Origin: Phycisphaerales bacterium | GTDB taxonomy: Bacteria; Planctomycetota; Phycisphaerae; Tepidisphaerales; Tepidisphaeraceae | DNA length: 48,628 nt | Direction: 5' to 3' | Assembly: GCA_020847545.1 (NCBI GenBank) | Contig: JADLBV010000016.1 | Span: 1-48,628, forward strand | Shown here: piece by piece, positions 5,401 to 38,809 of the stretch | How positions within the stretch are numbered: the stretch's first letter is position 1 | How the letters are laid out: each line of letters starts with the position of its first letter | The notes under the pieces: generated by a model | Seen by the model: only the letters and a program-made list of their open reading frames with translations | What the model was told of the DNA's origin: nothing | Databases searched by the model: none | Program-made: the position numbers and the translations under genes

Positions 5401-5739
5401 TCAACCCACGGCGCCGGCGCCCCGGTCGCCGCGCGTTTCCTCGGGGTGTTTTCGGTTGCGGTACATTTTCTTGTGATCGCTGAGCTGGCGTTCCAACTTG
5501 TGAACACACTGGTCAACACAGGCGTAGGCGTCGCCAACATCGTGGTTGGCGATGAACATGTTCTTATGTTCGGCGTTGACGATCACCTCAACGCGGGTGG
5601 TGTCCTTTCCGGCGTCAAAAATGACCTCGATTTCCTGAATCCGGTCGTAATATTTAAGCAGTTTGCCGGCTTTTTGCTCGGCGTACTGTTTGAGCGGCTC
5701 GGATACGTTCATGTGTCGGGAAGATACGGTCACCAGCAC
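5401..5739 (-). CDS. hpf: Ribosome hibernation promoting factor (HPF/RaiA family)
   Basis: Short-type hibernation factor of 112 residues that binds the 30S decoding centre in resting cells. The fold signature is clear: VSSRHMNVSEPLKQYAEQK at the N-terminus, then the beta strands containing EIEVIFDAGKD and VEVIVNAEHKNMF, and the helix DVGDAYACVDQCVHKLERQL. An ATG at 5910 would add 57 residues unlike the family and overlap the preceding DUF502 gene. The GTG at 5739 is preferred because AAGGAG lies seven nt upstream and the HPF domain begins at once. It lacks the C-terminal dimerisation domain of long HPF. First gene of the hpf-ptsN-ptsH-ptsI group. Confidence 0.9.
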   Translation of the reverse strand: MLVTVSSRHMNVSEPLKQYAEQKAGKLLKYYDRIQEIEVIFDAGKDTTRVEVIVNAEHKNMFIANHDVGDAYACVDQCVHKLERQLSDHKKMYRNRKHPEETRGDRGAGAVG

Positions 5740-5746
5740 AAGTATA

Positions 5747-5752
5747 CTCCTT
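5747..5752 (-). promoter_or_regulatory. Ribosome binding site that fixes the hpf start
   Basis: AAGGAG on the minus strand, seven nt before the GTG at 5739. It supports the short form of HPF over the longer open frame beginning at 5910. Confidence 0.75.
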
Positions 5753-5863
5753 GTCGAAACATCAGCCGACCATGCCCGGCCGGCTCTTTGGGCATTGTAC
5801 AGGAAAACCATAAAAAAGAATGCCGCGCAAATGATGAAAATGAAAGGGAATTTCCCCATGCGA

Positions 5864-6658: not shown

Positions 6659-9154
6659 TTACCCTCCGGTCGGTGCGGGTTCGCTGGTCGGAGGCAATTG
6701 GTCGATGGTCGGCTGGGTCGCCGATGGCTGCGTGGTGGCAACTTTGAGCAGCGAGGCCATTGAGGCGGCATATTGCTTCACCACCGGATCGGCATCGTTT
6801 TTGGCCGCGCTCTCCAGCAGTTGAAGATGTTGCTTCTGTTCCATGCCATTGGTCGCAACCAAGGCCATCAGCCGCACCAGCCAGTTGGCATCACCCAGCA
6901 GCGGCTTGATTTCATCGCCACGCTTGTCCGGCGGCAGCAGGATCACCCGTTGATAATTGGCCCAGGCGCGGATGGATGTTGACATTGGCTCACTGCCGGC
7001 CCGTCGCAACGCGGCGGTGAATTCATCCACCAGCGGGCGGTATTGGGCATCCTGCGTCATGAAAAACCGGGTGTAAGTGGTCAACAACTCAATGGCATGA
7101 ACGCGGTCGGCGCCGCTGCCGTTGTTGACGCGGTCCAGGAGCTTGCGTTTGGCTTCCTCGCTGGTCAGCGGATATCCGGCCCGTTCAAAAATCCGGCTGA
7201 ATTGCACCACATTGCCCGCCGGCCCCGGCCCCACGCCGCCGTGGAAGGTGATCGGGTTGGTCATGATGTTGGCGTAAACCTGCACGGAAATGGAGGGGTT
7301 GGTGGCAAACAATTGATCCAGCGCCCCCTGATCAACCCGCACGGTTTGTGTCATGCTCTGGCCGGGCAGCAATAAAATCTGCTGCGCGAACCGATCAAAG
7401 ACCGGCGGCACACCCTGCTGGGTTGCGCCGCGAAGCTGCGCATTGATCCACAAGTCAGGCCGGATCACGCCGTCGGACGAGACGGTCAGAGGATAATTGC
7501 TGATGTTGCGCAGCGTAATCTGGGCGAACATCGGTTCGCCAAACTGGTGCGACACCTGCACCGGCATGGCGCGCAGGATGTAAAAGCCATCGGGTGAATC
7601 GATGATCTTCAACCAGTCGGTGGGGAATTTCTCCAGTTCCATCTTGATCCCCACCGCCTGTTGCGATTGGATCAGTTGCACCCCTTTGGACTGCAATTCA
7701 CCCCACAACAACGCCCCCAGCACGCCCGAAGGATTGTCGTTGAAGATTCGCCGGGCAATCGCCCCGGCCGACTGTTCGCCGGCGGCATTTTTGTCGGTAA
7801 CGCGAATCAAACCCAGCGCCGCCAGCGGATCGTGATCCGACACCGCCGACAGTTTGACGCTCGCCTCATCTTTTTTCCCCTCCAGCAGCAAGGCCCACCC
7901 TTCTAGCCGTGCCAGTGTGACATTGTCGGCCGGCAACAGCGACTTCAGCGGTTCCAGCAGTTTTCGCACCTGTGCCGGCTGTTCGTTGAAATAGGCCTCA
8001 AACCAGGCCAGATCGATCAGCGACATGGTGTATGCCGATCGGATTTCCTGCGCGGTCTGCTGGCCCATGATGGCCTTGGCCTCGGCCGTCACATCCGGAA
8101 TCATCACCTCGCCGGGTGAATCAATCGGTTGGGTGGTCGCATCCTTGTGGCCTGCCGCCTGTCGGGCCATTTGCAGGCGGTTGTTCAGTGCGACAAGGGC
8201 TTCCTGTCGGGCCTTGGCGTATAAATCCTTGTTGCCGTTGCTTCGTTCAATTGCCAGTCGCAAAAACCACGCATCCACGTTGGTGGGGTCGAATTGCAGC
8301 AGTTGGGTCACCCATCCGATGGCGGCGGGGGATTGGCCGCTGATGAACAGCTCGGCGGCATAACCGATGGCCGTTTGCGGCGGCGGAAGCTGCCCCAGCC
8401 GGTTGTAAACGTTCAACGCGACGCCGTACCAGCTTAAGGAATCATCCATCAGCCCCACCCCGGCGGCCTCTGCCGCCAAGGCGGCGGCCTTTGCCGGCTG
8501 TGCGGGATTGGCCCGAAGCATCGCCATCAGCACCTTGGCCCGTTCCAGCGGGCTGCCGTTGGCCAGTAACATCTCATATCGCATCTGCAACGCGGCGAGA
8601 TTTTGGGCATTGAGCCTCACCGCCTGGCTGAGCATATTCAAGGCTTGATCGGATTGGGATCGCTCCGAATAGAGCCGCGCCAGCCGCAACGCCACGTGTG
8701 AGCGAACCGGTTCCGGGATGCTCTGCACATCAAGAAGTTTTCTCAGATATTCCATCCGCGCATCGGCGGTCTGGAGACGGGACTGATACAAATCGATCAA
8801 CTGAATCTGCGCGGTCTGACTGTTGGGATCCTTGGCGACCAGTTGCCGCAGCGTGTCCAGCGCCCCGGCCTCATCGCGGGACTGCAACTGGGCCTCGCCA
8901 AGCAGCCGCAGATAACGCGGGTCATCCGGATTCAGTCGCTGCGCCGCCTGCAACAGGACGGCGCTGGCCTGCCATGCGGGGTCGGTGATGTTGCGGATAT
9001 GCAGCAGTTCCTGTGCAAATTCCGCGCATTGCTCGGCCATGGCGGCGTCGGCCGAGTCACGATTGCGGTTCTCCTGCGAGAGCGCGGGGGATGAAATCCA
9101 TCCCAGCGCCATCAACAGCGTCACGATCCACACCCCCGGTCGCCTTTGAATCAT
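6659..9154 (-). CDS. Secreted or periplasmic TPR-repeat protein
   Basis: Large tetratricopeptide-repeat protein of unknown role, 831 residues from the ATG at 9154. That start gives a typical signal peptide (MIQRRPGVWIVTLLMALGW then ISSPALSQ); a longer open frame reaching 9289 would hide it. TPR units are visible at about residues 50-260 (for example LNPDDPRYLRLLGEAQLQ and AVRLNAQNLAALQMRYEML). The middle is alpha-helical, and a beta-rich part (LEKFPTDWLKIID to FHGGVGPG) separates it from a second helical region. The C-terminus is Thr/Pro-rich. It lies between the DUF4159 membrane protein and DUF502, suggesting a shared envelope role; no enzyme motif is seen. Confidence 0.8.
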   Translation of the reverse strand: MIQRRPGVWIVTLLMALGWISSPALSQENRNRDSADAAMAEQCAEFAQELLHIRNITDPAWQASAVLLQAAQRLNPDDPRYLRLLGEAQLQSRDEAGALDTLRQLVAKDPNSQTAQIQLIDLYQSRLQTADARMEYLRKLLDVQSIPEPVRSHVALRLARLYSERSQSDQALNMLSQAVRLNAQNLAALQMRYEMLLANGSPLERAKVLMAMLRANPAQPAKAAALAAEAAGVGLMDDSLSWYGVALNVYNRLGQLPPPQTAIGYAAELFISGQSPAAIGWVTQLLQFDPTNVDAWFLRLAIERSNGNKDLYAKARQEALVALNNRLQMARQAAGHKDATTQPIDSPGEVMIPDVTAEAKAIMGQQTAQEIRSAYTMSLIDLAWFEAYFNEQPAQVRKLLEPLKSLLPADNVTLARLEGWALLLEGKKDEASVKLSAVSDHDPLAALGLIRVTDKNAAGEQSAGAIARRIFNDNPSGVLGALLWGELQSKGVQLIQSQQAVGIKMELEKFPTDWLKIIDSPDGFYILRAMPVQVSHQFGEPMFAQITLRNISNYPLTVSSDGVIRPDLWINAQLRGATQQGVPPVFDRFAQQILLLPGQSMTQTVRVDQGALDQLFATNPSISVQVYANIMTNPITFHGGVGPGPAGNVVQFSRIFERAGYPLTSEEAKRKLLDRVNNGSGADRVHAIELLTTYTRFFMTQDAQYRPLVDEFTAALRRAGSEPMSTSIRAWANYQRVILLPPDKRGDEIKPLLGDANWLVRLMALVATNGMEQKQHLQLLESAAKNDADPVVKQYAASMASLLKVATTQPSATQPTIDQLPPTSEPAPTGG

Positions 9155-9239
9155 GCTTTGAGGTCCTCGTGAAATAAATGCCTTTGCGTCAATCGGCGAA
9201 GCGCCCAAGCGCAAGTGTCGCCCTGATCGTACTATATCG

Positions 9240-12023
9240 TCAATCCCGCGCCCTTTCACGCGATCCATCCCAGGTCCACAGGATTGCATTTTTCAACAGG
9301 TCGTGTGCCCAGGCCGCCTCATATCCCACAACCCCCCAGGCCATCGAAGCGGTCAGGCCGGTGGAGAAGTCGATGGGACACATCAGCACAACTCCTTTGC
9401 CGGCACGAAACCACATCGGCCGGGCCTCGGATGGTTTGATTCGCAGCCGTGCGAATTTTCGCAATTTCACTTCGCCAAGATCGACCATCCCCGGCGCGGA
9501 TGCGTTCATCAGTGGATGATCCGCCGGCAGGGGAGATGGGGATTCGTTAAAAGCCTTGTTGAGCAAATTATCACGAACAGTCCGGGCAAACGCTGGATCG
9601 CCGCCGCACGGGTCGATCAGAAGAACACCGCCGTTTGTCACAAAATTGCGGACCGATTCGATTTGTTTCTCATCGGGTGTGATTTCTCCCGTTCCGGTCA
9701 GATGGGCAAATCGCAGACCCGATTGGGCCAGATTCGCCAGATCGATCGTTTGAGGTTGAATGTCGTAACTGGTTTCCCGCATGATCTGCCGGGAGAATCG
9801 TCGCCAAGCGCCAGGTTCGGGATCCCAATTGCCGGCGAAGCGAACCCGCGCCAGTTTCATGCGGGCAATCGGTTTGGCATCAACGGGAGCAATCGCCCAG
9901 CTTTTGAGCCGGTTTCGCACGCCGCTTTTGCCGCCGGCGTAGGCATAGAGATTCACGCCCAGGTCAAAAACGGGGCGGTGCTCTTTTTGTTCCTTGAGTT
10001 GCCAGTATTGCGCCAAATCGGCCTCGCTGTGAACCATCAACACACGCGATCCATTTGTAATCATCCGCAGAGGCGGTTTCTGTTTCATGCGAAAGACGGC
10101 CGAGTAGAACCAATGGTCTTCCGGCACGATATGCCAGGTGTATTGAGGAAACTGCCGCGGCCCCAATTTATCGATAAATTGATTGAATTCCGCACTGTCG
10201 CCATCCGCCTGTGTAAAGATCATCCCGCCTGCTTCGACATATTCGCGGAGATTGTTTTCCTGACTTTCGGACCAATTGGGGGCCTGGTGGCTGGCCAGAT
10301 AGAGGATGGGTGCGTCCATCCAGTCGGGCGCGTCCAAGTTCAGGTTCACCACCTGCCAGTTCAATGGTTGTTCCAGTTCATAGGAGGCAAATCGGCTGAG
10401 ATTGGCCATGTCGCGCGGGCGGTTGGCCCAGAAGCCGTCAAACCGGCCTTTATTCATCATGATGGGATGTCGGCCGCGCGATAAGAACAATGTGGCGAAG
10501 GAGGTATCGACCAGGCTTCCCCAGTCGCCGTTGGCGCTTTGTCGTTCCAAGACTCTGGTGGCGAGGATTCGATACCAGTCGTGTTGGCCGATGTATTTGA
10601 ATCCGCAAGCCAGCCCAACCCGTTCGATGCCATAGAGGGCGTATCCCCATGAACTGCTGTTTTCCGGGGTGATGATGTTGTTACCTTTTTCCAGCCAGGC
10701 GAGGCCGCGCGCCAAGGCGGGCGAGAATGGCTCGCGGCCGACGTTGTTGCCATATCGCGGGCCGTCCAAAATATCGTGTGCGACAAATAGTGACGCCACA
10801 CCGGCGCAGGTCATGGTCAAGGTGGGATCGTTTGATCGTTGGTATCCCCAGCCACCGGTGGAGTGTTGGGTGTCATCCCAGTGCGATTGGACATCATTCC
10901 AGTAGGAGGAGGGAATGGACAATCCGGCGTCAGCGCCGGCCCAGACGCCAAGTTGGCCGTACTGGGTATTGGAATGATCCCATCGGATTTGCCCGGAGGG
11001 TCGTTGCTCGCCTGTCGGTAGGCCATAGGTGTATGTCCCCACCTGCGCGGCCTCCAGCAGGTATTTCACATCCGCCGACAAGGTTGGTCGATCCTGTGGG
11101 CGGTTGTAGACCGCCAATGCGGTGGCGCGAAGCGAATGGGCATAAGTGCCGACGTGGCCATCCATCGACAATTGTTTGAGTTCATCGATCAACTGTCGCA
11201 TCAATTTGCCGTTGATGGAGAGGCGTTCGTCGCCGGTGGCCTGGCCGGCTTGAAGCAGGGCGTAGACGCACAGGGCGTTGAGGCCGTTTTGTTGATCCGG
11301 GGAGCTGGCGGAGTTGGGTTTGAGTTTTCCCTGTTCAAAATGGGAGAGGATGAAATTGATCGCTTTGGTCAGGGCTTCCCCGATACGCTGGTCGTTGACG
11401 ATGGAGGATTCCACCACCACAGGTTGTGGCGCGGGGCGCTGGCCGGTGGGGGTTTGCAGGTTTTCATCTTCGGCGACGGTTGGGGCGGGAGGAGGTGGCG
11501 GGACGGCCGGGGTTGGTGTGGACGGCTGCGGCGGGGGAGTGGCGGCCGATAGCTGCTGTCGGGCGGCCAATTGGGCGGCCAGTGCCAATTCCCGTCTTCG
11601 CGCGGCGTTGACACGGGATTGCAGTATCGGATCGTCAAGCGAGCGGCCGAGGATCAGTTGATCCAACTCGTGATAGCGGTCATACGCCTCTGAGGTGTTC
11701 CCCTGTTTGTCCAGCGACTCGGCCTGATTTAACAGTGCGACGATTTGCTGGCGGTGTTCATCCTCCCAGGTGGGTTTTGGAGCGGTCAGGTAGCTGTGGA
11801 GCCAGATGGACAATGCGATGAAAAACAAAGCCAACAGGCCGTAAGCGCTGTAGCGGGCGATGTGGCGCCAGTCTTTTGGGGGTGGGGGAGCGGCTTCGTC
11901 GTCGCGAAGGATGGGGCAGAAGGGGCAGCGCATCGCCCGGCTTTCGCCCACGCGAACGAGGCGCAATGGTCTTCCGCAGCGCGGGCAGGTGGGGCGTTTG
12001 ATTGGGCCGGTGTCCAGCGGCAT
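9240..12023 (-). CDS. Zinc-ribbon, membrane-anchored alpha-toroid protein with DUF4159 domains
   Basis: Multidomain envelope protein of 927 residues. Residues 14-36 form a zinc ribbon (CPRCGRP, then CPFCP). A single membrane helix at about 57-72 (YGLLALFFIALSIWL) is followed by a helical stretch, a Pro-rich linker (about 150-185) and a squalene-cyclase/prenyltransferase-like toroid (about 210-540) with repeats such as GLAWLEKG and STGGWGYQRS. The rest holds two DUF4159-like modules: DAPILYLASHQAP with LREYVEAGGMIF, then VRFAGNWDPEPGAWRRF with LTGTGEI and VRNFVTNGGVLLIDPCGG. This combination occurs in planctomycetes and related bacteria; its biochemical function is unknown. No cyclase DXDD motif is evident, so an enzymatic role in hopanoid synthesis is unlikely. 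Confidence 0.78.
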   Translation of the reverse strand: MPLDTGPIKRPTCPRCGRPLRLVRVGESRAMRCPFCPILRDDEAAPPPPKDWRHIARYSAYGLLALFFIALSIWLHSYLTAPKPTWEDEHRQQIVALLNQAESLDKQGNTSEAYDRYHELDQLILGRSLDDPILQSRVNAARRRELALAAQLAARQQLSAATPPPQPSTPTPAVPPPPPAPTVAEDENLQTPTGQRPAPQPVVVESSIVNDQRIGEALTKAINFILSHFEQGKLKPNSASSPDQQNGLNALCVYALLQAGQATGDERLSINGKLMRQLIDELKQLSMDGHVGTYAHSLRATALAVYNRPQDRPTLSADVKYLLEAAQVGTYTYGLPTGEQRPSGQIRWDHSNTQYGQLGVWAGADAGLSIPSSYWNDVQSHWDDTQHSTGGWGYQRSNDPTLTMTCAGVASLFVAHDILDGPRYGNNVGREPFSPALARGLAWLEKGNNIITPENSSSWGYALYGIERVGLACGFKYIGQHDWYRILATRVLERQSANGDWGSLVDTSFATLFLSRGRHPIMMNKGRFDGFWANRPRDMANLSRFASYELEQPLNWQVVNLNLDAPDWMDAPILYLASHQAPNWSESQENNLREYVEAGGMIFTQADGDSAEFNQFIDKLGPRQFPQYTWHIVPEDHWFYSAVFRMKQKPPLRMITNGSRVLMVHSEADLAQYWQLKEQKEHRPVFDLGVNLYAYAGGKSGVRNRLKSWAIAPVDAKPIARMKLARVRFAGNWDPEPGAWRRFSRQIMRETSYDIQPQTIDLANLAQSGLRFAHLTGTGEITPDEKQIESVRNFVTNGGVLLIDPCGGDPAFARTVRDNLLNKAFNESPSPLPADHPLMNASAPGMVDLGEVKLRKFARLRIKPSEARPMWFRAGKGVVLMCPIDFSTGLTASMAWGVVGYEAAWAHDLLKNAILWTWDGSRERARD

Positions 12024-12068
12024 CGCAGGGTATTTTAGCCGCTGAAAAGGTTCTGCCCATCCGTGTGG

Positions 12069-13220
12069 TTATTTTACCAATTCAATTCGGCCGGGTCGGG
12101 AAAACCGGTAGGTGCGATTGCCGGTGTTGTTGTTCCATTCGTATTCATCCATCTGCCCGATGAAAAGCCGGGTGGCGCCGGAGGGGATGATGAATTGCTG
12201 GACGATTTCGTCGGAGGTCATGCCGTCGCCGATGAAAAAGACCTGTTTGAGTTGCGGTGACAGCGTGGTGAAATCACGACTTTCCGGGGTGGAGAAATTC
12301 AGCGTGGGGGGAGGAGAGGTCATGTTGGGTTTGCTGTCATCCAGAAACACCCCGACAATCGCGTTGATGGGGGCGTACATGTCCGACATGCCATTTTCCG
12401 GGCCGCCACTGGAACTGTAACGATTGTGGACGATCCATGAACCGTTTCCATCCGGGTCGTAAATGGGATCCCAGTCGTTGTCGTTGTTGGAATATCCGCT
12501 GACCGAGCTGAAGTTGATGGCGGTTCCTGGTTGCAGGGGGAGGTCGGTTATGAGCGTGGGGCTGGGGTCGAGATAACCGGCGCTGGGTTTGGATTTGCCG
12601 GCGATGTCGGGGTTGTGGTGGGGGTTGTTGGGGTTGGCAACCGTTCCACTGGGCATCCCGGCCAGCCAGGGGTTGGCGGCCGAGGAGATGTCGCCGGTCA
12701 CGTCGATGGGGGTGATGTAGGCGGCGGTGGCCGTGGCGTGGATGGACTGATATTGACGTCCAAGCAATGCGCCGAAAATCAGAGGGATTCCATTGGTCCC
12801 TTCCAGCTTCGCCGTCACGATTACGGCATTGAGCGGGGTTTGCGAGGGTTTGAATGTTCTGGTGGTCTCATCATAAAAGGTGTAGGTGATATTCGAGTTG
12901 GCGAGGATCAGTTGGTTGCCATCGACCAGATTGAGCTTGGCCACCTGTTTGGCGGCGTTGCGGGCGGCTTTTTTGCTGCCTGAGATTTTGGCCGCGCCGG
13001 CGCGGGCGGCGGCATCCACCGCTCGTTGCAGTTCGGATTTGGCCAGTTGCACCCGTCCCAGGTCGACTGCCAGCGAGCAGACACCCACCAGCATGACCAG
13101 CACGACGATGGCGTACATGACGCTGATGCCACGACGCGCCGGCCGCGCGGCAACCCGTTGAATGGCGCTATTCCACATCGCTTTCATAAATCTGGTATCG
13201 GAACGTTGGGGGAGGGGCAT
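12069..13220 (-). CDS. TadE/TadG-like pilus assembly protein
   Basis: Resembles the TadG/TadE group of Flp-pilus minor components. The N-terminus has a short basic leader ending ARPARRG, then the helix SVMYAIVVLVMLVGVCSLAVD and the conserved DLGRVQLAKSELQRAVDAAARAGA, the usual pseudopilin-like start of TadG proteins. The following about 300 residues are beta-rich, secreted-looking and poorly conserved. The start is uncertain: ATG at 13220 or 13187 both precede the leader, neither with a clear ribosome binding site; longer frames upstream run over the opposite-strand Cys-rich gene. It is upstream of the DUF4159 gene by 45 nt. No other tad genes are present. Confidence 0.7.
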   Translation of the reverse strand: MPLPQRSDTRFMKAMWNSAIQRVAARPARRGISVMYAIVVLVMLVGVCSLAVDLGRVQLAKSELQRAVDAAARAGAAKISGSKKAARNAAKQVAKLNLVDGNQLILANSNITYTFYDETTRTFKPSQTPLNAVIVTAKLEGTNGIPLIFGALLGRQYQSIHATATAAYITPIDVTGDISSAANPWLAGMPSGTVANPNNPHHNPDIAGKSKPSAGYLDPSPTLITDLPLQPGTAINFSSVSGYSNNDNDWDPIYDPDGNGSWIVHNRYSSSGGPENGMSDMYAPINAIVGVFLDDSKPNMTSPPPTLNFSTPESRDFTTLSPQLKQVFFIGDGMTSDEIVQQFIIPSGATRLFIGQMDEYEWNNNTGNRTYRFSRPGRIELVK

Positions 13221-21910: not shown

Positions 21911-22894
21911 TCAGTCCCGAATTTTCAACAACACCTTGCCCAGCGGTCCCTGTGCCAGGCGGTCAAAGGCGTTGGGCAACTGTTCAAAATCAAATACGCG
22001 ATCCACCACTGGTTTTGCACCCGATTTTGCAAGCAATGCGACGACTTCCCGCCACGCAGCAGTAGTTTCGGTGGCTGTATAAGCGCCCACCGCGACACCA
22101 CCCAATCTCAGCCGTCGAAAAAACAATGTCGCGGTGTTGAATTGCGGAACCGGCCCGGCCAACCGGCCGACCAAGCTCACTCTGCCATGATCACCCAGCG
22201 TGTTGATGACCATCGGCAGCAAATCGCCCCCGATGTTGTCGATTGCCAGATCAACCCGGCGCGGCGAAATTGTTTTTTTCAATTCGTCGGGCCATTGCGG
22301 ATCGGCCGGATCATATGTGAATTGCGCCCCCAGTTTCTGCAATTCATCGCGTTTGGCCCGACTGCGCGACAACGCCACCACGGTATGTCCCATGGCACGA
22401 GCCAGTTGAATCGACGCCACCCCCACACCGCCCGATGCGCCGGTGATCAAAATGACCCCTTCGGGCAGTTCTCCCCATTGGGTCAGCGCCTGATATGCCG
22501 TCAGATAGACCAGTGCAGCGCCGGCGGCTTGTGTGGCGGTCCATTGGCCGGGAACCGCCGCCAGCGACTCAACCGGCACGGCCACCAATTGTGCAAACGT
22601 TCCCGCTCGATTCACCCCGATCTCACTGCGCAAAATGATGCACTCCTGACCCACCTGAATCCCTTTCACCCCATGCCCGATCCGGCGGACAATCCCCACA
22701 CCATCACGCCCCAGGATGTGCGGCAACGGCGGCTTGGCCGGATATTGCTTTTCAGCCAGATACCGGTCGGCCGGATTGAGCGCGGCATACCGCATCTCCA
22801 CCAAAACCTCACCCTCACCCACGATCGGATCAGGAACCTCGGCCAGATGAATCGACCCAATGCCGGAAAATGTATCCAACAACCATGCTTTCAT
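21911..22894 (-). CDS. MDR-superfamily oxidoreductase, quinone-oxidoreductase-like
   Basis: Medium-chain dehydrogenase/reductase of 327 residues. The N-terminal GroES-like fold has ALNPADRYLAEKQYP and HILGRDGVGIVRRIG. The Rossmann part shows ITGASGGVGVASIQLARAMG, the NAD(P)H-binding signature of quinone oxidoreductases. Cysteine and histidine ligands for catalytic and structural zinc are missing at the usual places, so it belongs to the zinc-free quinone oxidoreductase/enoyl reductase branch. It is convergent with the AspT-like gene (stop to stop separated by one base) and divergent from the RHH operon. The substrate cannot be predicted. Confidence 0.88.
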   Translation of the reverse strand: MKAWLLDTFSGIGSIHLAEVPDPIVGEGEVLVEMRYAALNPADRYLAEKQYPAKPPLPHILGRDGVGIVRRIGHGVKGIQVGQECIILRSEIGVNRAGTFAQLVAVPVESLAAVPGQWTATQAAGAALVYLTAYQALTQWGELPEGVILITGASGGVGVASIQLARAMGHTVVALSRSRAKRDELQKLGAQFTYDPADPQWPDELKKTISPRRVDLAIDNIGGDLLPMVINTLGDHGRVSLVGRLAGPVPQFNTATLFFRRLRLGGVAVGAYTATETTAAWREVVALLAKSGAKPVVDRVFDFEQLPNAFDRLAQGPLGKVLLKIRD

Positions 22895-22994
22895 GGCATG
22901 AATCGTAGGCCAGGCATGGTTTGCGACGCAATGCCGACTCCAACCGCACTGATAAGGAGATGGTTGCCGAACTTACGAATCAACAGCTCATCAC

Positions 22995-23020
22995 CAACTG
23001 TCGATATATATAAATAGTTG
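22995..23020. promoter_or_regulatory. Dyad operator candidate upstream of the RHH-GNAT-XRE operon
   Basis: CAACT (22995-22999) and AGTTG (23016-23020) are inverted around the same centre (23007.5) as the palindrome ATATATAT (23004-23011). The right half overlaps the -35 box at 23018-23023, so a bound regulator would block RNA polymerase. The likely ligands are the RHH or XRE proteins of the operon; this is inferred from position. Confidence 0.45.
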
Positions 23021-23045
23021 ATATTGTGGCCAAATATGGTATAAT
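23018..23045 (+). promoter_or_regulatory. Sigma-70 promoter of the RHH-GNAT-XRE operon
   Basis: -35 TTGATA (23018-23023) and a perfect -10 TATAAT (23040-23045) with a 16-nt spacer, followed by GGAGG (23053-23057) six nt before the TTG start at 23064. Confidence 0.75.
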
Positions 23046-23063
23046 CTATTTTGGAGGCAGACG

Positions 23064-23279
23064 TTGAGTAACGATAAACGAACCATGACTCTCAACCTGA
23101 CGGCGGCCGAGATGATGGTGTTGGAGGAGCTTGCTCAGCGAAAAGAATTGACCAAGACCGCGTTGATTCGACAGGCCCTCCGCCTCTATCAGTTGGTCGA
23201 TTTACGTTTGAGCCAAGGGGAGAAGCTCTTTTTCGAGGATGAACAGAACAAGAAAAAGGCCGAGGTGATGGTCTTATGA
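23064..23279 (+). CDS. Ribbon-helix-helix (CopG/Arc-type) regulator
   Basis: A 71-residue protein with a ribbon-helix-helix fold: the strand RTMTLNLTAAE, helix MMVLEELAQRKE and helix TKTALIRQALRLYQLV. A charged tail follows (EDEQNKKKAE). Such proteins are dimeric DNA binders and often antitoxins or autoregulators. The start is TTG because GGAGG lies six nt upstream; the first internal Met (MTLNL, residue 8) is an alternative. It overlaps the next gene by four nt (ATGA), so translation is coupled. Confidence 0.82.
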   Translation: MSNDKRTMTLNLTAAEMMVLEELAQRKELTKTALIRQALRLYQLVDLRLSQGEKLFFEDEQNKKKAEVMVL

Positions 23280-23923
23280 GCGAGTCAAAGACAACACTCA
23301 AAGCCGGATCATCCACAATCGACGCGGAGGTTCACGATGATTTGGAGATCAGCAATTTGTTCGATGCCGAAGAGACATGGGCGCCGGCTCGCGTTCGGAT
23401 GCTGCGTGAGTTGACCCACCGGTATGTCCCTCAGACCTCCTGGCCGGAAAGTCTGCATTGGAATTGGGCAAAGAAAGCCGCCGGGATGAGTCCCGCGCGG
23501 CTCGGTGCCCTGGGAGATATCCGCATCTTCGGGATTCATGCGGACTCTGCCTGGCAGGGAATATTGCTCGCAAAGGCGGCTGGATATTACACCAGGCTCG
23601 CGCCCAACGGCCGGGAGTTGATTTACGTTGAATATCTCGAAAGCGCTCCTTGGAACTGGGAACAGCCGCTGATCAATCAGGTTGCACGGTATCGGGGCGT
23701 GGGCACAAAACTTGTTGGCCTCTCGGTGCTATGGAGCCTGCAGCTTGGGTTTCAGGGAAGAGTGGGTCTTCATGCCCTGCCGCAGGCGGAAGACTTTTAT
23801 CGAAGAAGATGCGGCATGACTGATCTGGGGGCGGATAAAAATCAGGAGAGATATCGAGGCATGCGTTATTTTGAGTTTTCCGTTAAGCAGGCGAATCAGT
23901 TTTTGAAAGGAGGAATGCCATGA
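23276..23923 (+). CDS. GNAT-family acetyltransferase
   Basis: A 215-residue protein with a GNAT fold in its second half. The acetyl-CoA pyrophosphate loop is RYRGVGTKLVGLSVLWSLQ (Q/RxxGxG/A pattern), followed by GRVGLHALPQAEDFYRRRCGM, the typical strand-helix end where FY and a GM pair are conserved. The N-terminal about 50 residues are unlike common GNAT proteins. It starts at ATG with a 4-nt overlap with the RHH gene and ends with a 4-nt overlap with the XRE gene. Known RHH-GNAT pairs such as TacA-TacT are toxin-antitoxin modules that acetylate aminoacyl-tRNA; this GNAT is longer and less like them, so the substrate is unknown. Confidence 0.72.
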   Translation: MSESKTTLKAGSSTIDAEVHDDLEISNLFDAEETWAPARVRMLRELTHRYVPQTSWPESLHWNWAKKAAGMSPARLGALGDIRIFGIHADSAWQGILLAKAAGYYTRLAPNGRELIYVEYLESAPWNWEQPLINQVARYRGVGTKLVGLSVLWSLQLGFQGRVGLHALPQAEDFYRRRCGMTDLGADKNQERYRGMRYFEFSVKQANQFLKGGMP

Positions 23924-24417
23924 CACAGTTGAAAAACAAAACAATACACAAGCCACTCGACATTACGCCATTGAATAACATCGCGTTCTCGGCAAAAGCA
24001 TTCGCTGAGGCGGAGGGATGCCTGTCGGTTGGTGGGCTGCTGCATGGCGAAGAGGAGACAAAGCCATCACCAGATACGGCACGTCTTCCATTGGCACGTC
24101 TCATCGAATTGGCAAGGCGAAAGAAGCGGCTTTCGGTCGAAGATTTGGCCAGGGAGGCCGATGTTGAGTTGAGCGAGCTTGTGGCGATCGAGAATGGTGA
24201 TGACATTGAACCAGATCCGAAAACACTGCATCGACTCGCAATATTCTTCAACATCAGAGTCGAAAGCCTGATCGAGTTGGCCGGCGCGATGACCAATCGG
24301 CAGTCACGGATCAACGAGGCGGCACTGCGATTTGCAGCGCGCTCCGAACCGATGACGATGCTCACCGCCGAGGAAGAAAAGGCTCTCAATGAATTCGTCG
24401 CGGAACTGGCCAAGTAG
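23920..24417 (+). CDS. XRE-type helix-turn-helix protein
   Basis: A 165-residue protein. The XRE helix-turn-helix lies at about residues 58-112: LARLIELARRKKRLSVEDLA, then ADVELSELVAIENGDD and PKTLHRLAIFFNI. The N-terminal 45 residues (LNNIAFSAKAFAEAEGC) and the C-terminal helix after TNRQSRINEAALRFAARSE may bind a partner. It begins with ATGA overlapping the GNAT stop, so it is the third gene of the same transcript. As an antitoxin-like or promoter-binding partner it may act with the RHH protein. The operon appears lower in GC than its neighbours, with more AGA/AAA codons, hinting at transfer. Confidence 0.75.
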   Translation: MTQLKNKTIHKPLDITPLNNIAFSAKAFAEAEGCLSVGGLLHGEEETKPSPDTARLPLARLIELARRKKRLSVEDLAREADVELSELVAIENGDDIEPDPKTLHRLAIFFNIRVESLIELAGAMTNRQSRINEAALRFAARSEPMTMLTAEEEKALNEFVAELAK

Positions 24418-24474
24418 TCGAAAAAGCTTCTTGAGATATTCCGTCTTTTTGCGGTGGACAACCGCAATATTCCA

Positions 24475-27033
24475 TCATTTTGGCGGCCGGCGCGATCCTT
24501 TGGCTTGCGGCGGGGCGGTCAGCGGGTCTTCCGGCCAGGAGTGCTTGGGGTACTGGGCGCGCAAGTCCTTGCGGACGTGGAAGTAAGCATCAGACCAGAA
24601 ACTTTTAAGGTCGGTTGTGATCTGCACCGGCCGATAGTTGGGGGCCAGCAGATGAAGCAGGACCGGCACGCGCCCGCCGGCCAATCGGGGGGTGTCGGCC
24701 AATCCAAACAACTCCTGCAACCGAACGGCCAGTATCGGGCTTTGGTTGTCGCCATAGGTTAATCGGATGCGATTGCCGGTGGGAACGGCCAGGGTTTCCG
24801 GCGCGTGTTGGTCGAGCAGGCGATTGAGCGGATAGGGCAGTTGGGATTCGATCAACGGGGCAAGTGGCGATTCGCGTAACTGCTGGACCGACCGCTTGCC
24901 GGCGGTGATCGTCGTCAGCAGGTCGGCCAGTGTGTTTGAATCAAACACCGGCCAAGGATGTTCGGGCATGTGAAGGCGAAGAAATTCGATGCGACTCAGC
25001 AACAAACGGGCGGCCGGGTTGTCCTGAAATATTTGCAATGCGTGCGGCCGCGCGGCCTCGGCGAGGATTTGCGCGGCCTTGTTCGGATCGACCGAAGCAT
25101 CCGCATCCTGCTGGATCAGCAGGTCATGGTAAAAAATCTGCCCAAGCCCGACGACGCGGTCCCGCTCCTGGTCATACACCGCCTCGCGAACCCGGCGGAT
25201 GGCGTGGGGAAACAGCTCATGCAGCCATGCGGGGTCGATGGCGCTGGCCAGACGGACCAGCGATTGCCGGGTGGCCGAGCGTTGGTCATGGCGGGCGTCG
25301 AGTGCGAGAAAAAACTCCGCATCCCGCACGACCGATTCAGCCGCCAGCCGAACACCGATGCCGCCGACCATGAGGGCGGTCTCCGAACCTTCGGATCGCC
25401 GACGGCAGACGCGGTCCCCATACGCCAGCAACAACAGTTTCAGCAGCGATTCGCCATGGCCCGATTTGACGATGGTGAGCCGACGGGTTAGTCGCAGCAA
25501 CTCATTGCGGATGCGCTGGGTTTGTCGAACGGCCGAATGATCCAGTTCAATCGGTGATGACGATGGGTGATCGAGCCATTGCAGGCGTTGGATCAGGTCC
25601 GATTCGCCGCGGGAATGGGGGTGGCGGGGCGATCCATCGGACGGTGGTCGAACGATCTCTTTCTCCGCCAACAGCGCCGCCAGCGAGGCTCCTTCGTGCG
25701 GCATGTTCGCCGCCGTCGCGGCGATCAGCAGCCGGGCCAGCCGGGGATGCAGTGGCAGTGACAGGATGGTTCGGCCAAGGGGGGTGATGGTGAGGGTCTG
25801 GTTGTTAAGTTGCAACGCCCCCAGCATCAGGAGCAATTCATCGGCGGCCGCGAGTGTGGCGGGGGGTGGTGATTCAAACCAGCCGAAATTCGCCGGGTTG
25901 TTGATCCCCCACGCATGGAGCGACAATACGGTGGAAGCCAGGTCCACACGCCGGATTTCGGGGGTTTCAAAATCATCGCGGGATTGATGTTCCTTGGCCG
26001 TCCAGAGCCGGATGCACCGTCCGGGCGCGGTACGGCCCGCCCGTCCGGCGCGCTGGGTGGCCGAGGCGTTGGAGATTCGATGGATCATCAGCCGATCCAG
26101 CCCGCGATCCGGATCGTAACTGGCGATGCGCGACAACCCTGAATCAATCACCATGCGGACCCCTTCAATCGTCAACGAGGTCTCGGCGATGTTGGTGGCG
26201 AGTATCACCTTTCGACGATCCGCCGGTCGCAGGGCCAGCCGCTGTTCCTCATCCGACAATGATCCATGCAACGGGAGCAGCAGCAGGTTGTGATCATTCG
26301 CCAGGGGTTGCAGGTGATGTTGCGTTCGGCGGATTTCATCGACGCCGGGCAGAAAAACCAGAACATCGCCTGCTTCCGCTTCGGGTGTATCCAGCACTTG
26401 TACCAAGGCACCGGCGATTCGGCCGGGCAATTCGGCACGGTTCATCGGCCTGGAAATTGGATCGAACTGAATATCAATCGGATACGTTCTCCCCTGTGAA
26501 TGAAGGATGGGGCATTCGCCCAGAAATTTCGCCACCGGCCCGGCTTCCAGCGTGGCGGACATCACCAGCAGAATCAGATCCGGCCGAACCGATTGCTGAA
26601 TTTCGCGCAACAAGGCGAGCGCCAGATCGCTGTGCAGGTTGCGCTCGTGAAATTCATCCAGCAACACCGCCCCGATTCCGCTCAGAAGGGGGTCATCAAC
26701 CAGTAGGCGGGTCAGAATCCCCTCGGTGAGGATGCGCAAGGGGGTGGAGGGTGAAAACTTGCGGTCGAAACGAATGTGGTATCCCACCTCCTCTCCCAGC
26801 GTCCAATCCTGCTCCTCGGCGATCCGACTGGCCGCCGCTCTGGTCGCCACCCGGCGGGGTTGCAACATGATCAGTTTCGGATGTTCCGTGGATAACAATC
26901 CGGCCTGCAGAATCGCGGGTGGGATGCGGGTCGTCTTACCCGCACCCGGTGGGGCTACCAGCACCAGCGAACGATTGGCGCGCAGGGATTGGATAACCTG
27001 TGGAATCAGAGAATCAATCGGCAATGGGAGCAT
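24475..27033 (-). CDS. hrpB: ATP-dependent helicase HrpB (DEAH/RHA type)
   Basis: Superfamily 2 helicase of 852 residues. Walker A is APPGAGKTT (27-35), motif II is DEFH in LLDEFHERN rather than DEAH, followed by motif III SATLEA. The C-terminal helicase domain has FLPGVDEIRRTQ, ATNIAETSLTIEG (motif V) and QRAGRAGRTAPG (motif VI). The HrpB-specific C-terminal region is present (PRLARLLIAA to the end). In E. coli HrpB is a non-essential RNA helicase of unknown target. It is divergent from ychF and convergent with the XRE gene. Confidence 0.95.
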   Translation of the reverse strand: MLPLPIDSLIPQVIQSLRANRSLVLVAPPGAGKTTRIPPAILQAGLLSTEHPKLIMLQPRRVATRAAASRIAEEQDWTLGEEVGYHIRFDRKFSPSTPLRILTEGILTRLLVDDPLLSGIGAVLLDEFHERNLHSDLALALLREIQQSVRPDLILLVMSATLEAGPVAKFLGECPILHSQGRTYPIDIQFDPISRPMNRAELPGRIAGALVQVLDTPEAEAGDVLVFLPGVDEIRRTQHHLQPLANDHNLLLLPLHGSLSDEEQRLALRPADRRKVILATNIAETSLTIEGVRMVIDSGLSRIASYDPDRGLDRLMIHRISNASATQRAGRAGRTAPGRCIRLWTAKEHQSRDDFETPEIRRVDLASTVLSLHAWGINNPANFGWFESPPPATLAAADELLLMLGALQLNNQTLTITPLGRTILSLPLHPRLARLLIAATAANMPHEGASLAALLAEKEIVRPPSDGSPRHPHSRGESDLIQRLQWLDHPSSSPIELDHSAVRQTQRIRNELLRLTRRLTIVKSGHGESLLKLLLLAYGDRVCRRRSEGSETALMVGGIGVRLAAESVVRDAEFFLALDARHDQRSATRQSLVRLASAIDPAWLHELFPHAIRRVREAVYDQERDRVVGLGQIFYHDLLIQQDADASVDPNKAAQILAEAARPHALQIFQDNPAARLLLSRIEFLRLHMPEHPWPVFDSNTLADLLTTITAGKRSVQQLRESPLAPLIESQLPYPLNRLLDQHAPETLAVPTGNRIRLTYGDNQSPILAVRLQELFGLADTPRLAGGRVPVLLHLLAPNYRPVQITTDLKSFWSDAYFHVRKDLRAQYPKHSWPEDPLTAPPQAKGSRRPPK

Positions 27034-34430: not shown

Positions 34431-35435
34431 TTAATTGCGCTTGCGGCGTCGAATCAACATCAAGGCAGCGCCGGCGAACAACCCCAGCGATGCCGGCTCG
34501 GGAACCGCGGAATAGGTTGCCCCGATCTCGGCGATCTGCGTGACACCCTGTCCCGGCTCATTGGTGTTTGCCCAGACCAGCTTGAAATACCGTGCGTCAA
34601 CCGGCGAACTAAACGTGATCGTCTGCGTCGCGGCCGTCTCCGGCAGCGTCGCGCTGGCCAACAAGGTGGTCAGGTTGTTCACATCGTCGGTTGGGCTGTA
34701 GAAAACCTGCACATCCTTAGGGCCGTTCCAAAAGGCGGCCTGTCGTGCGGCGATGGTCAAGCCGCTGATATCCTGGCCGGCCTGCTGAAGCACATCCAAG
34801 ACATAATTGCCCGATTCGCCGGAGTTGTTCGCGAACGAGTTAATGTCTCCATCCGTGCTGTTATTGATCGGAAAGTTGTTGTTCGTATTATTCGCCGCGG
34901 AAAGTACCACCACCGGCCGCTGAAGCTGCAATTCCGTCAACCACAGTGAATATGGCCCGCTGGGATTGTCATTGACGTATCGGAAATACCGTTTGGTCTG
35001 TTCGGGGAAATAAAACCGCTGTCCGATGTTTTGCTCACCGGAGATGTTGGGATTGTTGGGAAACAGGTTGCTTGCGGTTCCGATCGTCACCCAGTCATTG
35101 TTGAGGGGATTGTCGCTCGTGGAAACCTGGATCTGAAAATTCCCGGCCACGCCCGCGCCGAAGCCGCCCGCCCATGTGGTAGCGCTGACATCGCTGAACG
35201 TGGTGGCGGAACCCAAATCATATGTGATGTAACTGCCATTGACGGTCGTGCCGGCGCCAGTTCCAGTGTCACCGCGACCGTCGTCTTCGTGATTGTTGAC
35301 CGTGGCTGAAGCGTTACGCCAGTTGGAACTGTCGTAAACCGCCGGCGTGATCGCCGCCCAAGACAAGCCGGTCGCCGACAACAACATGCCACCGGCAATG
35401 CCGCCAATTGTAATAACTTGATTCAACCCGCACAT
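34431..35435 (-). CDS. Secreted PEP-CTERM protein with two discoidin-like domains
   Basis: Extracellular or surface protein of 334 residues. The signal peptide is MCGLNQVITIGGIAGGMLL with SATGLSWA. Two F5/8-type-C (discoidin)-like beta sandwiches follow: about 30-170 (NASATVNNHED through YSLWLTELQLQ) and about 175-300 (NNFPINNSTDGDIN through YFKLVWANTN). The end VPEPASLGLFAGAALMLIRR and RKRN is a canonical PEP-CTERM sorting signal. ATG 35435 with GGAGG eight nt upstream fixes the start. The discoidin fold commonly binds carbohydrate; no catalytic site is seen. Promoter at 35467-35495, terminator at 34371-34395, so it is its own unit. Confidence 0.85.
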   Translation of the reverse strand: MCGLNQVITIGGIAGGMLLSATGLSWAAITPAVYDSSNWRNASATVNNHEDDGRGDTGTGAGTTVNGSYITYDLGSATTFSDVSATTWAGGFGAGVAGNFQIQVSTSDNPLNNDWVTIGTASNLFPNNPNISGEQNIGQRFYFPEQTKRYFRYVNDNPSGPYSLWLTELQLQRPVVVLSAANNTNNNFPINNSTDGDINSFANNSGESGNYVLDVLQQAGQDISGLTIAARQAAFWNGPKDVQVFYSPTDDVNNLTTLLASATLPETAATQTITFSSPVDARYFKLVWANTNEPGQGVTQIAEIGATYSAVPEPASLGLFAGAALMLIRRRKRN

Positions 35436-35466
35436 GGATATGTCCTCCGTAAAAGTGATTGTCAAC

Positions 35467-35495
35467 AATATACTCCGTCTTTGAATAAAGTTCAA
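35467..35495 (-). promoter_or_regulatory. Promoter of the discoidin-like PEP-CTERM gene
   Basis: On the minus strand, -35 TTGAAC (35490-35495) and -10 TATATT (35467-35472) with a 17-nt spacer. Half-sites CCTGAA/TTCAGG like those of the LacI operator lie upstream at 35535-35540 and 35653-35658. Confidence 0.6.
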
Positions 35496-35684
35496 GTAAA
35501 ATTTTACGATTGCCTTGAAATTTATTTGAAATACTTCAGGATGCCTGTTTGGGGTCAGTTCACCGAGAATTCATTTATTCAATTTTTATTCACAATGTTC
35601 CATTATATCATAGATCGGAATATCTCAGAATGACTGAAAACTATAGTTGTATCCTGAAAATATGGCTTAAAAAATGAGTATTCG

Positions 35685-37664
35685 TTATTGTTCCAGCCGA
35701 TAAACCCCGACGCCGAATGGGGCCAATTGATCGATGACCGCGCCGTTGGCAATTTTGGGCTGTCGGCCAGAATCCAACAGATATTCGGCTTTTCGGATTG
35801 TTTTGCCGGGGATGCTCAATCGCATCTTATCCACGGGTGTTTTGCCATAATTGACGATGACCACTTCAGTTTTTCCGTTCACATCCCTGGCCAGATGCTT
35901 GAGGTTTTCACCTTCAACCTTCACTTCAACGGGTTTGGAACTGAACAAAAACGGCTCCATGACGATGGATTCGTGATTGACCAGGCGCACAGAGGCCTGC
36001 AACTGGGGCATGTTGTCCAGGAAGCTGGAGGTGGGGATGGATTCCGACCAGGAGTAATACCAGAAGGAATTCATCCCGTCGCAGATGTTGAAATAGGCTT
36101 CCGCGCGGAGCTGTGCCGGCGTGGGGATTCCCGCTCCCGTGTTGCCGAAGGTTTGAAGTATCGAGATCAGCGGCTTGCCGGGATTGGCCTTCTTGATCGC
36201 AACGTTGTAATCGTGCAGTGCGTTGATGCCCACCGTCGGCATCGGGTAATAGTCATACGAGGCCAGGTCGGACATGCCGGCATATTGATCAAACAATGGA
36301 ACCTGACAGTAATTGACAAAGACGATGTGGTTGGGGTCCAGCTTGCGGACCAGTTCATACCCCCTGCGAACCTCGGCGGGGTCCATGCGATGGGCATCCG
36401 GCTCATCAATTAAATCCCACATGAGCAGGCCGGGATGATTCTTCAGGCGGTTGACCGTTTCAGTCAGCTTGTCGGTCTTCCAGGTTTTCGTACTCCAGTC
36501 GAACATCGCATCGTGGAACAGGACGCCCTCGGAATAGATGCCGCCGTTCTGGTAAAGATCGTCAATTCGCTTTTCCAGCTCGTTGATGCTGTTGCCACCC
36601 CAGGTCTGGGAGAAATTGATTCCAAACATCTTTCTGAGTTTGGTGATCCCCTCCGATTCCTGCGGGTTGTGAAAGAGCATGATCGACACAAACGGCTTGC
36701 CGTTGACCAGAAAATTGCCATCCGGGCCGATTTCCGTTCGTCGGATCGGCGGTAATTTCTCCATGCTGATCGGCGGCACCACCACCAATGAACGCTCGTA
36801 ATGGAGTCGTTCCGATCCATCCAGGCGGACAAAATCGATGTTGATGCGGTAACGGCCTTCTTTCAGGTTGTCGGTGGGAATTTCCCAGTAACTGGGGCCG
36901 GCGCGCTCAATGAGCGGGTTGCCGCTTTTCCAGATGGGCTGTTCATCAGCGATGCCGGTGGACAATACGCGCTCAACCGAAATTTCGACCTTGCCGCCGG
37001 TGGCTTCCCGTCCCACATTCATCCAGAGCGGCAACAGCTTGGGGGTGTTGCCGGTGGGGCATGTCTCGACAATGCCGTTTTCCTGGTCGGACACCTGTAA
37101 CAGCGAATAAGGTGAATTGAGAAACGGGTCTTGGATGGCCGTCAGACGAACATCATCCCACCAGATATCGCCGGTGTTGGCATCCGCCATGCGCAGGCCC
37201 ACTTGGAGCGAAGCGGTGTTGTCGCCCGGCCGCACCAGCGCCACCCGGCGTTGCCACTCCTTGTTTCCGCTGCTCAGCCAGGTCCAGTGATCGGCGATCG
37301 GATTGCCTTGAGCGTTTAATTCCCGCAATTCGATGCCGGAGCTTTTGGCGGGATCAATGGTATCACGATAGTAAAATTCAAGTTTGTAGATCATTCCCGG
37401 TCTAACCTTGACCGGGTTTGAAAATGCGACGTTCCATCGGGTCAGCCCCTTGGCCGACTGCTTCAGGCTGAATTTGCCTTCATGAGGCCGATCCGTGTCG
37501 ATGCTGATGGCGCCGCCACCCTGAGGATCGAGCGTATAGCCTTCGACATTTCCCTGTTCAAAACCGGGATTGACCAGCAGATTCGTTACTTGTGTGGCGC
37601 CTTGGGTACGGGATGTTGCGGCCATTAAGACACTCGCGATGGCGAGGATAATCATTCGATACAT
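35685..37664 (-). CDS. Secreted glycoside hydrolase, clan GH-A-like with N-terminal carbohydrate-binding domain
   Basis: Secreted protein of 659 residues. Start ATG 37664 has GGAG eight nt upstream and gives the signal peptide MYRMIILAIASVLMAATS. Residues about 25-175 resemble a CBM_4_9-type module (LLVNPGFEQG, WTWLSSGNKEWQRR, WWDDVRLT). A beta-sandwich linker precedes a (beta/alpha)8 barrel from about 300, with NGKPFVSIMLFHNPQ and the acid/base position in LLMWDLIDEPD. At the strand where a nucleophile Glu is expected the sequence reads KPLISILQTFGN, a glutamine. Substrate unknown. It is on the same strand as the pseudopilin and PEP-CTERM genes. Confidence 0.75.
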   Translation of the reverse strand: MYRMIILAIASVLMAATSRTQGATQVTNLLVNPGFEQGNVEGYTLDPQGGGAISIDTDRPHEGKFSLKQSAKGLTRWNVAFSNPVKVRPGMIYKLEFYYRDTIDPAKSSGIELRELNAQGNPIADHWTWLSSGNKEWQRRVALVRPGDNTASLQVGLRMADANTGDIWWDDVRLTAIQDPFLNSPYSLLQVSDQENGIVETCPTGNTPKLLPLWMNVGREATGGKVEISVERVLSTGIADEQPIWKSGNPLIERAGPSYWEIPTDNLKEGRYRINIDFVRLDGSERLHYERSLVVVPPISMEKLPPIRRTEIGPDGNFLVNGKPFVSIMLFHNPQESEGITKLRKMFGINFSQTWGGNSINELEKRIDDLYQNGGIYSEGVLFHDAMFDWSTKTWKTDKLTETVNRLKNHPGLLMWDLIDEPDAHRMDPAEVRRGYELVRKLDPNHIVFVNYCQVPLFDQYAGMSDLASYDYYPMPTVGINALHDYNVAIKKANPGKPLISILQTFGNTGAGIPTPAQLRAEAYFNICDGMNSFWYYSWSESIPTSSFLDNMPQLQASVRLVNHESIVMEPFLFSSKPVEVKVEGENLKHLARDVNGKTEVVIVNYGKTPVDKMRLSIPGKTIRKAEYLLDSGRQPKIANGAVIDQLAPFGVGVYRLEQ

Positions 37665-37795
37665 GAACAGATCTCCGTTCGAGCGAAATATTGTCATGGT
37701 GATGAACATTGAGGGTGAATTGGTCCCATCCCGTATTGCGCGTATCATGCTGACAGAATGGGCGAATAATCACGTTCGCGTGTGAGCGGATGCGA

Positions 37796-38539
37796 TCATG
37801 GGTTCCATTTCAACAGATTGCCGATCGCACTGGGGTCTGTTGACAATGGTGTGCTAGGATAAGCATTTACATGGCCATCCACGAACAGAACATTGATCCG
37901 GTTGGAATGTCGATAACTGTTGTACGGAACTACATCGGTGGGATGTGAATTGAAAGGGGCGGTATTGATTCCAGCGGTGGAGCCGGAGGGAACCGATTTG
38001 GAATCGATCAGCCAGACGGTCTCAGGGGCTTTGGTGATCTGTGTGATCTTGATCGGATCCTGGCCGACATTCATATCATGGCCGACATAGATATTGGCGG
38101 CGTAACACAAGGGGAAAAACCGCATGGGGTATGTTGGCAATTCAATCCACGTTCCATACCCCGTGATGATTTCCGATTCATCGGCTGCGGGACAGCGAAA
38201 GACCTCGATATTGCGGTTCAGATAGTAATAAAGCCGACTTGGCCACCAGTAATTGCCCGGCCGTTCGGGAAGCAGGACATTGGGTGGAAACCAGTTTTTA
38301 TTTTCAGCACAATACAGGGACATCGCCACGCCAAGCTGGCGCATGTTGGATGCGCAGGCAACTTGTAATGACGATTGCCTCGCCTTATTTAGTGCGGGCA
38401 TCAGAATGCTGATCAAAAGCGCGATAATGCCGATGACGACCAGCAGTTCCACGAGGGTAAATGCGCTGGCCCATGATTGGCGGCGGGACGGAATGGTGCG
38501 AGCGGTCCGATTGGAAATGATCCACCTTTTGTTGCTCAT
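37796..38539 (-). CDS. Planctomycete-type pseudopilin (prepilin N-terminal methylation motif)
   Basis: A 247-residue type II secretion-like pseudopilin. After a 25-residue basic leader comes AFTLVELLVVIGIIALLISI, with the conserved Glu five residues after the cleavage point but Ala in place of the usual Gly before it. The C-terminal globular part ends RHSNRINVLFVDGHVNAYP, the HxxxxNxLFxDGHV pattern found in planctomycete proteins of this kind. ATG 38539 has AGGAG six nt upstream. Planctomycetes often carry single such genes beside carbohydrate loci; a role in secretion or surface capture is inferred. Confidence 0.88.
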   Translation of the reverse strand: MSNKRWIISNRTARTIPSRRQSWASAFTLVELLVVIGIIALLISILMPALNKARQSSLQVACASNMRQLGVAMSLYCAENKNWFPPNVLLPERPGNYWWPSRLYYYLNRNIEVFRCPAADESEIITGYGTWIELPTYPMRFFPLCYAANIYVGHDMNVGQDPIKITQITKAPETVWLIDSKSVPSGSTAGINTAPFNSHPTDVVPYNSYRHSNRINVLFVDGHVNAYPSTPLSTDPSAIGNLLKWNP

Positions 38540-38699
38540 CTGAAACTCCTGTTCTGACGGCAAATAGAGTTGATTGCTCTGATGATGCCACTCACCTGAA
38601 CAACCCAGCAATCAGATGATAGATGGTTGGTCCGATCTTGTCAACAAAATTAAGTATGAATGGTAAATAATAATTCAGGAAGTTTCAAATAGAATTAAA

Positions 38700-38728
38700 T
38701 TGACATATTGGCGAAATTTCTTTACAAT
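38700..38728 (+). promoter_or_regulatory. Sigma-70 promoter of the beta-helix PEP-CTERM gene
   Basis: -35 TTGACA (38700-38705, consensus) and -10 TACAAT (38723-38728) with a 17-nt spacer. TTCAGG half-sites flank it at 38674-38679, 38781-38786 and 38795-38800, and ACCTGAA lies at 38594-38600. Confidence 0.75.
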
Positions 38729-38809
38729 TCCATGTGTATGGCGAATCAATCGTTTGTATCCATCCACATGAGCCGGATAATTCAGGATAAAATATTCAGG
38801 AGGGTAATT

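Follow-up and report, generated by a model that had tools for sequence, protein, structure and literature searches.

The window analysed here, a stretch of 48,628 nucleotides, carries three overlapping genes that we regard, with somewhat better than even confidence, as a free-standing and protease-less derivative of a mobile four-gene RHH-GNAT-HTH-M78 controller cassette, whose parent form controls CBASS and Bub operons. The reading draws on computed results, namely the conserved gene order, the insertion, the conservation of an operator, the linkage to immune operons, the fold of the GNAT and the relationship to CapH and CapP. Since most relatives are wired to CBASS or Bub operons, the main theme of the cassette appears to be immune-operon control rather than a free toxin system, and the three-gene form in the window appears to be a cut-down derivative that stands by itself. 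The initial annotation had proposed an undescribed three-part module. Its gene order is indeed conserved, its acetyl-CoA loop is kept and it is mobile, but most relatives have four genes, including one for a CapP-like peptidase, and are wired to CBASS or Bub.

Results

The first gene (23064..23279, forward strand) encodes an RHH (CopG/RHH_1) protein of 71 aa, with a TTG start behind GGAGG and a match to Pfam RHH_1 at E=1.7e-4. The second (23276..23923, forward) encodes a 215-aa GNAT-fold acetyltransferase of a divergent family, recognised by alignment, AlphaFold and Foldseek, and the third (23920..24417, forward) a 165-aa XRE/HTH protein, CapH/DdrO-like, that matches Pfam HTH_19/HTH_3. The open reading frames and the ATGA sequences at both junctions (23276-23279 for RHH/GNAT and 23920-23923 for GNAT/XRE) bear out the three genes with 4-nt overlaps that had been described, and the Pfam matches of the outer two agree with the placing of the GNAT between two different DNA-binding proteins. 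Behind the operon lies a hairpin with a 7-bp stem, TTGCGGT-GGACA-ACCGCAA (24449..24467, forward), a possible weak terminator that is absent from the terminator scan output. No M78 (CapP) peptidase gene follows; the next gene is that of an HrpB-like helicase, and no immune operon adjoins the cassette in the window.

Is the arrangement found elsewhere? A search for the order RHH-GNAT-XRE found it at many loci, on plasmids and on chromosomes of several classes. Plasmid searches begun independently with the GNAT, the HTH protein and the RHH ended at the same loci: all 16 records retrieved with the HTH protein (E<=1e-6) were GNAT-cassette records. With the RHH protein (E<=1e-10), 18 of 19 records were cassettes, the 19th being an RHH alone that faces a Bub operon; the window RHH is 56-72% identical to these 19 plasmid RHHs. 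Our survey covered 27 loci with the cassette (the window, L001-L003, L012-L019, L021-L026, L030, L032, L033, L067-L070, L085 and L086). The RHH is present in all of them except L070. A fourth gene for a CapP-like M78 (ImmA/IrrE) peptidase is present in most, and is absent in the window, L002, L030 and L033, the last of which has a third gene of only 60 aa. Two copies are broken: L070 (9061-9785) lacks the RHH and the N-terminus of the GNAT and has a truncated HTH, and in L068 (9896-10817) the peptidase is split across two frames.

An immune system adjoins 19 of the 27 loci. Type III CBASS (CD-NTase, bacHORMA, AAA, SAVED) stands beside the cassette at five loci (L001, L003, L012, L013, L014), Bub operons (Multi_ubiq, ThiF, DUF6527 or Prok-E2_E/JAB) at L002, L015, L016, L018, L019, L021-L023, L025, L026, L067, L085 and L086, and a Cas9 gene at L017. 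The Bub/multiubiquitin loci total 14 if L087, which has the RHH alone, is counted. In most relatives the CBASS or Bub operon is divergent from the cassette. On a distant cyanobacterial branch, one copy (L029) lies inside a DISARM locus. Free-standing copies predominate in the class to which the window belongs; L067, which at 47% identity is closest to the window copy, has four genes and adjoins a Bub operon. A quick tree of the GNATs groups the CBASS-linked copies in a single clade and scatters the Bub-linked and free copies, as would be expected if immune linkage had changed several times.

What might the cassette act on at these loci? The cassette promoter TTGATA-16-TATAAT (23018-23045, forward; -35 box 23018-23023, -10 box 23040-23045) has 11 of 12 matches and is the sole sigma-70-like match in 22880-24520. 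As 0.9 matches are expected there by chance, the weight of this near-consensus promoter, which had been noticed in the initial annotation, comes from its position before the operon and not from its score. The dyad claimed over the -35 box fared less well. One half-site of the consensus TRGCYA, TGGCCA (23027-23032, forward), lies in the promoter spacer and a degenerate one, TAGTTG (23015-23020, forward), over the -35 box, but the dyad is weak and has no consensus pair.

The operator is far clearer in the relatives than in the window copy. Upstream of the RHH gene, 14 of 25 loci have TRGCYA sites in tandem at a spacing of exactly 11 bp (18 pairs overall), while 300 dinucleotide shuffles gave a mean of 0.02 pairs per set and a maximum of 1; the loci in this count are not independent because the sequences are related, although diverged intergenic regions are among them. 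At divergent loci (e.g. L003, L012, L014) a promoter of the type TTGAMT-n17-TATATN points towards the immune operon, and the two sites are located between its -35 and -10 boxes; in L019 the promoter so placed is TTGACT-n18-TATAAT. At free-standing loci, the window and L069 among them, a related half-site is found between the boxes of the promoter that serves the cassette itself. The window and L069 share TTGATATTGTGGCCA there, and half-sites at the same place are TAGCCG in L032, CGGCCG in L067 and TAGCCG in L068. In L087 the RHH and TAGCTAGTTTTTAGCTA are kept, facing the Bub operon, and GNAT, HTH and peptidase are not detectable. Because this locus keeps only the RHH and the operator, the RHH is the likely operator-binder.

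Could the window module instead act in trans on immune operons elsewhere in its genome? This candidate role was rejected. SMODS was not found elsewhere in the genome, nor was Multi_ubiq or a CapP-like protein, the latter two in searches that had no positive control, and the promoter/operator has no further copy there. As the window has neither a peptidase nor an immune operon, the module would act only on itself, its control being limited to its own promoter and its own GNAT.

The cassette in the window is a discrete insertion of 1566 bp (22909..24474), since a same-genus genome lacks this stretch. The flanks, a quinone oxidoreductase gene on the left (21911-22894, reverse strand) and the HrpB-like helicase gene on the right (24475-27033, reverse), align to contig 38 of that genome (G404; locus L079) with 79% and 83% identity, and the empty site has 49 bp against 1566 bp in the window. 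No transposase is encoded in the insert, which contains the promoter, the three genes and the 3' hairpin. The GC content of the insert is 52.2% versus 57.5% for the window, and no other 1566-bp stretch in the first 33 kb is as GC-low; the region had been called poorer in GC than its neighbours, and the calculation agrees. The mobility suggested on that ground is supported chiefly by the empty site, GC being the weaker evidence. Farther along, at 35001-40000, the GC content falls to 0.49-0.55, below most of the window. Members of the GNAT family are present in 17 of 298 genomes of the window's class. Low GC and patchy presence together favour a gain in the window's genome rather than a loss in G404.

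One may ask whether the window copy is merely decaying, its peptidase and immune operon lost and its three genes persisting with no function. Both are absent here, and the related copies L070 and L068 are broken. Nevertheless the window has three intact open reading frames with their overlaps, a near-consensus promoter and the conserved GNAT residues, and we think such decay improbable.

The third protein and the fourth gene connect the cassette with known immune controllers. The PADLOC capH model is matched at E<1e-3 by 9 of 19 HTH members (best 1.9e-8), the window HTH reaching only E=0.014, and the capP model is matched by the cassette peptidases (best 4.8e-17). By these matches the HTH and the peptidase are relatives of CapH and CapP. 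The canonical pair in L022 scores 3.5e-26 and 3.2e-61, and the cassette versions have diverged from it; at that locus (6747-13037) one Bub operon lies between a cassette and the canonical pair. For the window HTH, AlphaFold gives a modest model (pLDDT 65). Its N-terminus is disordered apart from a single short helix over a conserved motif, an XRE core occupies about residues 58-120 and two helices form the C-terminal part; DdrO is among the best structural matches of the model. M78 peptidases encoded in the window's own genome were considered as partners of the HTH and rejected, for they are HTH-M78 fusions with no match to the cassette peptidase profile. These fused peptidases (L035, L036) are followed by a 174-aa ORF, PIN-like by eye, and are probably separate modules.

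The conserved N-terminal motif, in the NIAFSAKAFAEAEGCLSVGGLL region (23977..24045, forward), has the pattern W-x-x-x-x-A-x-x-E ... I/V-G-A-G and is proposed as a segment that docks on the GNAT. It also occurs without an HTH, in the 60-aa protein of L033 and in cyanobacterial third proteins. Shuffled sequences scored as high on the motif in 0 of 1000 cases for L033, L027 and L029 and in 1 of 1000 for L020; for the third protein of L028 the number was 101 of 1000, so that its score is not above shuffles. Because the motif comes after the GNAT in each of three architectures, it likely contacts the GNAT, though an A2/A3 profile probability of only 12% counts against docking. A strong homology of the cyanobacterial third gene to the HTH protein beyond this motif was unsupported.

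What kind of enzyme is the GNAT? The window protein matches no Pfam or NCBIfam model, and 11-12 of 24 relatives match GNAT models. The acetyl-CoA pyrophosphate loop (R/Q-x-x-G-x-G) is RYRGVG at 23687..23704 (forward), and its last glycine, G143, is invariant in 24 of 24 sequences. W35, W62, W64, Q94, APWN at 124-127, GRxGLHxL and YFE are also invariant in the alignment. The AlphaFold model (pLDDT 82, pTM 0.83) is GNAT-like and matches solved GNATs in Foldseek. The acetyl-CoA loop that a GNAT ought to have is retained. The best Foldseek matches are the protein N-terminal acetyltransferases KKT23, NatD and Naa50, and one solved bacterial toxin is also among the matches; with TM-scores of only about 0.4-0.5, the substrate class cannot be read from the fold.

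Other searches gave little. A PDB sequence search with the GNAT returned xylanases, which are chance matches only, and a PDB profile search returned none. Phage relatives were not found by tblastn, and a profile scan of viral contigs gave distant GNATs only. The same GNAT family is also seen fused into large proteins on phage or prophage contigs (L049 at 4699-6285, L041 and L044), and in L049 the GNAT is the C-terminal part of a head protein of the MuF type (PF04233). Distant relatives within the window's class (L074:5497-7315 and L077:3629-5462) form an operon of GNAT, a protein of about 91 aa and an M78 peptidase. In another GNAT lineage (L072:8521-11169 and L037:5743-7280) a peptidase-like gene comes next, confirmed as PF06114 in L072, where a Beta_protein (PF14350) gene also follows the GNAT and peptidase.

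One alternative is that the genes form a plain GNAT-RHH type II toxin-antitoxin pair of the TacAT/AtaRT/KacAT kind with an HTH autoregulator, the immune neighbours being coincidental company in defence islands. The GNAT would then acetylate aminoacyl-tRNA, and the RHH would neutralise it through its C-terminal tail. The RHH gene stands directly before the GNAT gene and overlaps it, and the tail, GEKLFFEDEQNKKKAEVMVL, is strongly conserved among relatives in the alignment. Every intact GNAT of the close family is accompanied by an RHH, the sole RHH-less copy (L070) having a truncated GNAT and HTH, and an RHH can stand alone; this fits a toxin-antitoxin relation, on few cases. A solved bacterial toxin is among the fold matches, and in known GNAT-RHH pairs the GNAT is toxic and is neutralised by the RHH (PMC9431474). 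However, the cassette GNAT matches no known GNAT-toxin family in Pfam, NCBIfam or PADLOC, and in the same resources the RHH is RHH_1/CopG with no match to the DUF1778 antitoxins. The closest folds, albeit at low TM-scores, are those of NatD, Naa50 and similar protein N-terminal acetyltransferases. The operator occurs in the immune-operon promoter and not just in the cassette's own, and many loci share the same two types of operon. We consider this toxin-antitoxin reading unlikely.

Another possibility is an acetylation switch without any toxin. Here the GNAT would acetylate the N-terminus of the third protein or the RHH, and repression would vary with the acetyl-CoA level. Consistent with it, the GNAT stands between two DNA-binding proteins in a conserved order, the N-terminal motif of the third protein is conserved across architectures, and the top Foldseek matches are protein N-terminal acetyltransferases. 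Yet the TM-scores leave the substrate class unreadable, and L087 does without the GNAT. This version is also doubtful, at about one chance in a few; it is a variety of the controller reading itself, so that the confidences given to the two overlap.

Discussion

The controller-cassette reading gives the following scenario. In the parent form, the RHH, possibly together with the GNAT, would sit on the tandem TRGCYA sites and repress both the divergent CBASS or Bub promoter and its own. The third protein would be a CapH-like repressor that adds a second, protease-sensitive layer, with its N-terminal motif docked on the GNAT. Once DNA damage is signalled, this repressor would be cleaved by the CapP-like peptidase, by analogy with the action of CapP on CapH. 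For the GNAT we infer an active enzyme that the RHH holds, and its most probable role is that of a conditional toxin or of a modifier of partner proteins. A bolder statement can be offered only tentatively, as something a little short of an even chance: the RHH shuts the CBASS or Bub promoter, the GNAT tethers or modifies the CapH-like repressor through the N-terminal motif, and the CapP-like protease opens the system, which would make an undescribed class of controllers with the window copy as a mobile three-gene offshoot that keeps the GNAT core but not the immune operon. What speaks against the preferred reading in the window itself is the lack of a peptidase, the lack of an immune operon and the single consensus half-site.

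Why would such a cassette be of interest? To our knowledge, few controllers that silence suicidal immune systems until infection have been described, namely CapW, CapH+CapP and CapK+CapS. With the cassette, an acetyltransferase and an RHH repressor would join these, along with a defined candidate operator. Nature offers it in reduced forms, with the RHH only, with three genes or with four, so that its parts can be tested one by one. The cassette further ties GNAT-RHH modules, which are commonly taken for toxin-antitoxin systems, to the direct control of immune operons. No description of an RHH-GNAT pair together with CapH/CapP was found in the openly readable literature, and the novelty is relative to that.

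How does the cassette compare with known systems? CapH and CapP are an HTH repressor and an M78 peptidase that control CBASS and Bub operons (Lau et al. 2022, as cited in PMC13373217). Like them, the cassette has an HTH protein and a peptidase that match the capH and capP models and stand beside the same immune operons. Unlike them, it has an RHH and a GNAT in front, its HTH has an extra N-terminal motif, and the conserved operator is apparently that of the RHH. The window copy, having no CapP-like peptidase and no immune operon, is outside the CapH+CapP family. As in TacAT, AtaRT and KacAT, the RHH gene is directly upstream of the GNAT gene and overlaps it, autoregulation is likely, and the GNAT fold and acetyl-CoA loop are present; the differences are a GNAT that is by sequence in no known toxin family, RHH_1 in place of DUF1778, a third HTH gene and the immune linkage. 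CapK+CapS and CapW are also modular controllers beside CBASS, Bub and other immune operons (PMC13373217). They are kinase/STAS or WYL proteins, however, without RHH, GNAT or M78 peptidase. With DdrO-PprI (IrrE) of Deinococcus the cassette shares an XRE repressor with C-terminal helices and, when complete, an M78 peptidase. DdrO-PprI itself controls a chromosomal DNA-damage regulon and is not known to have a GNAT or RHH. Among these systems the cassette is best filed as a variant of the immune-operon controllers, one that combines CapH/CapP-type and GNAT-RHH parts.
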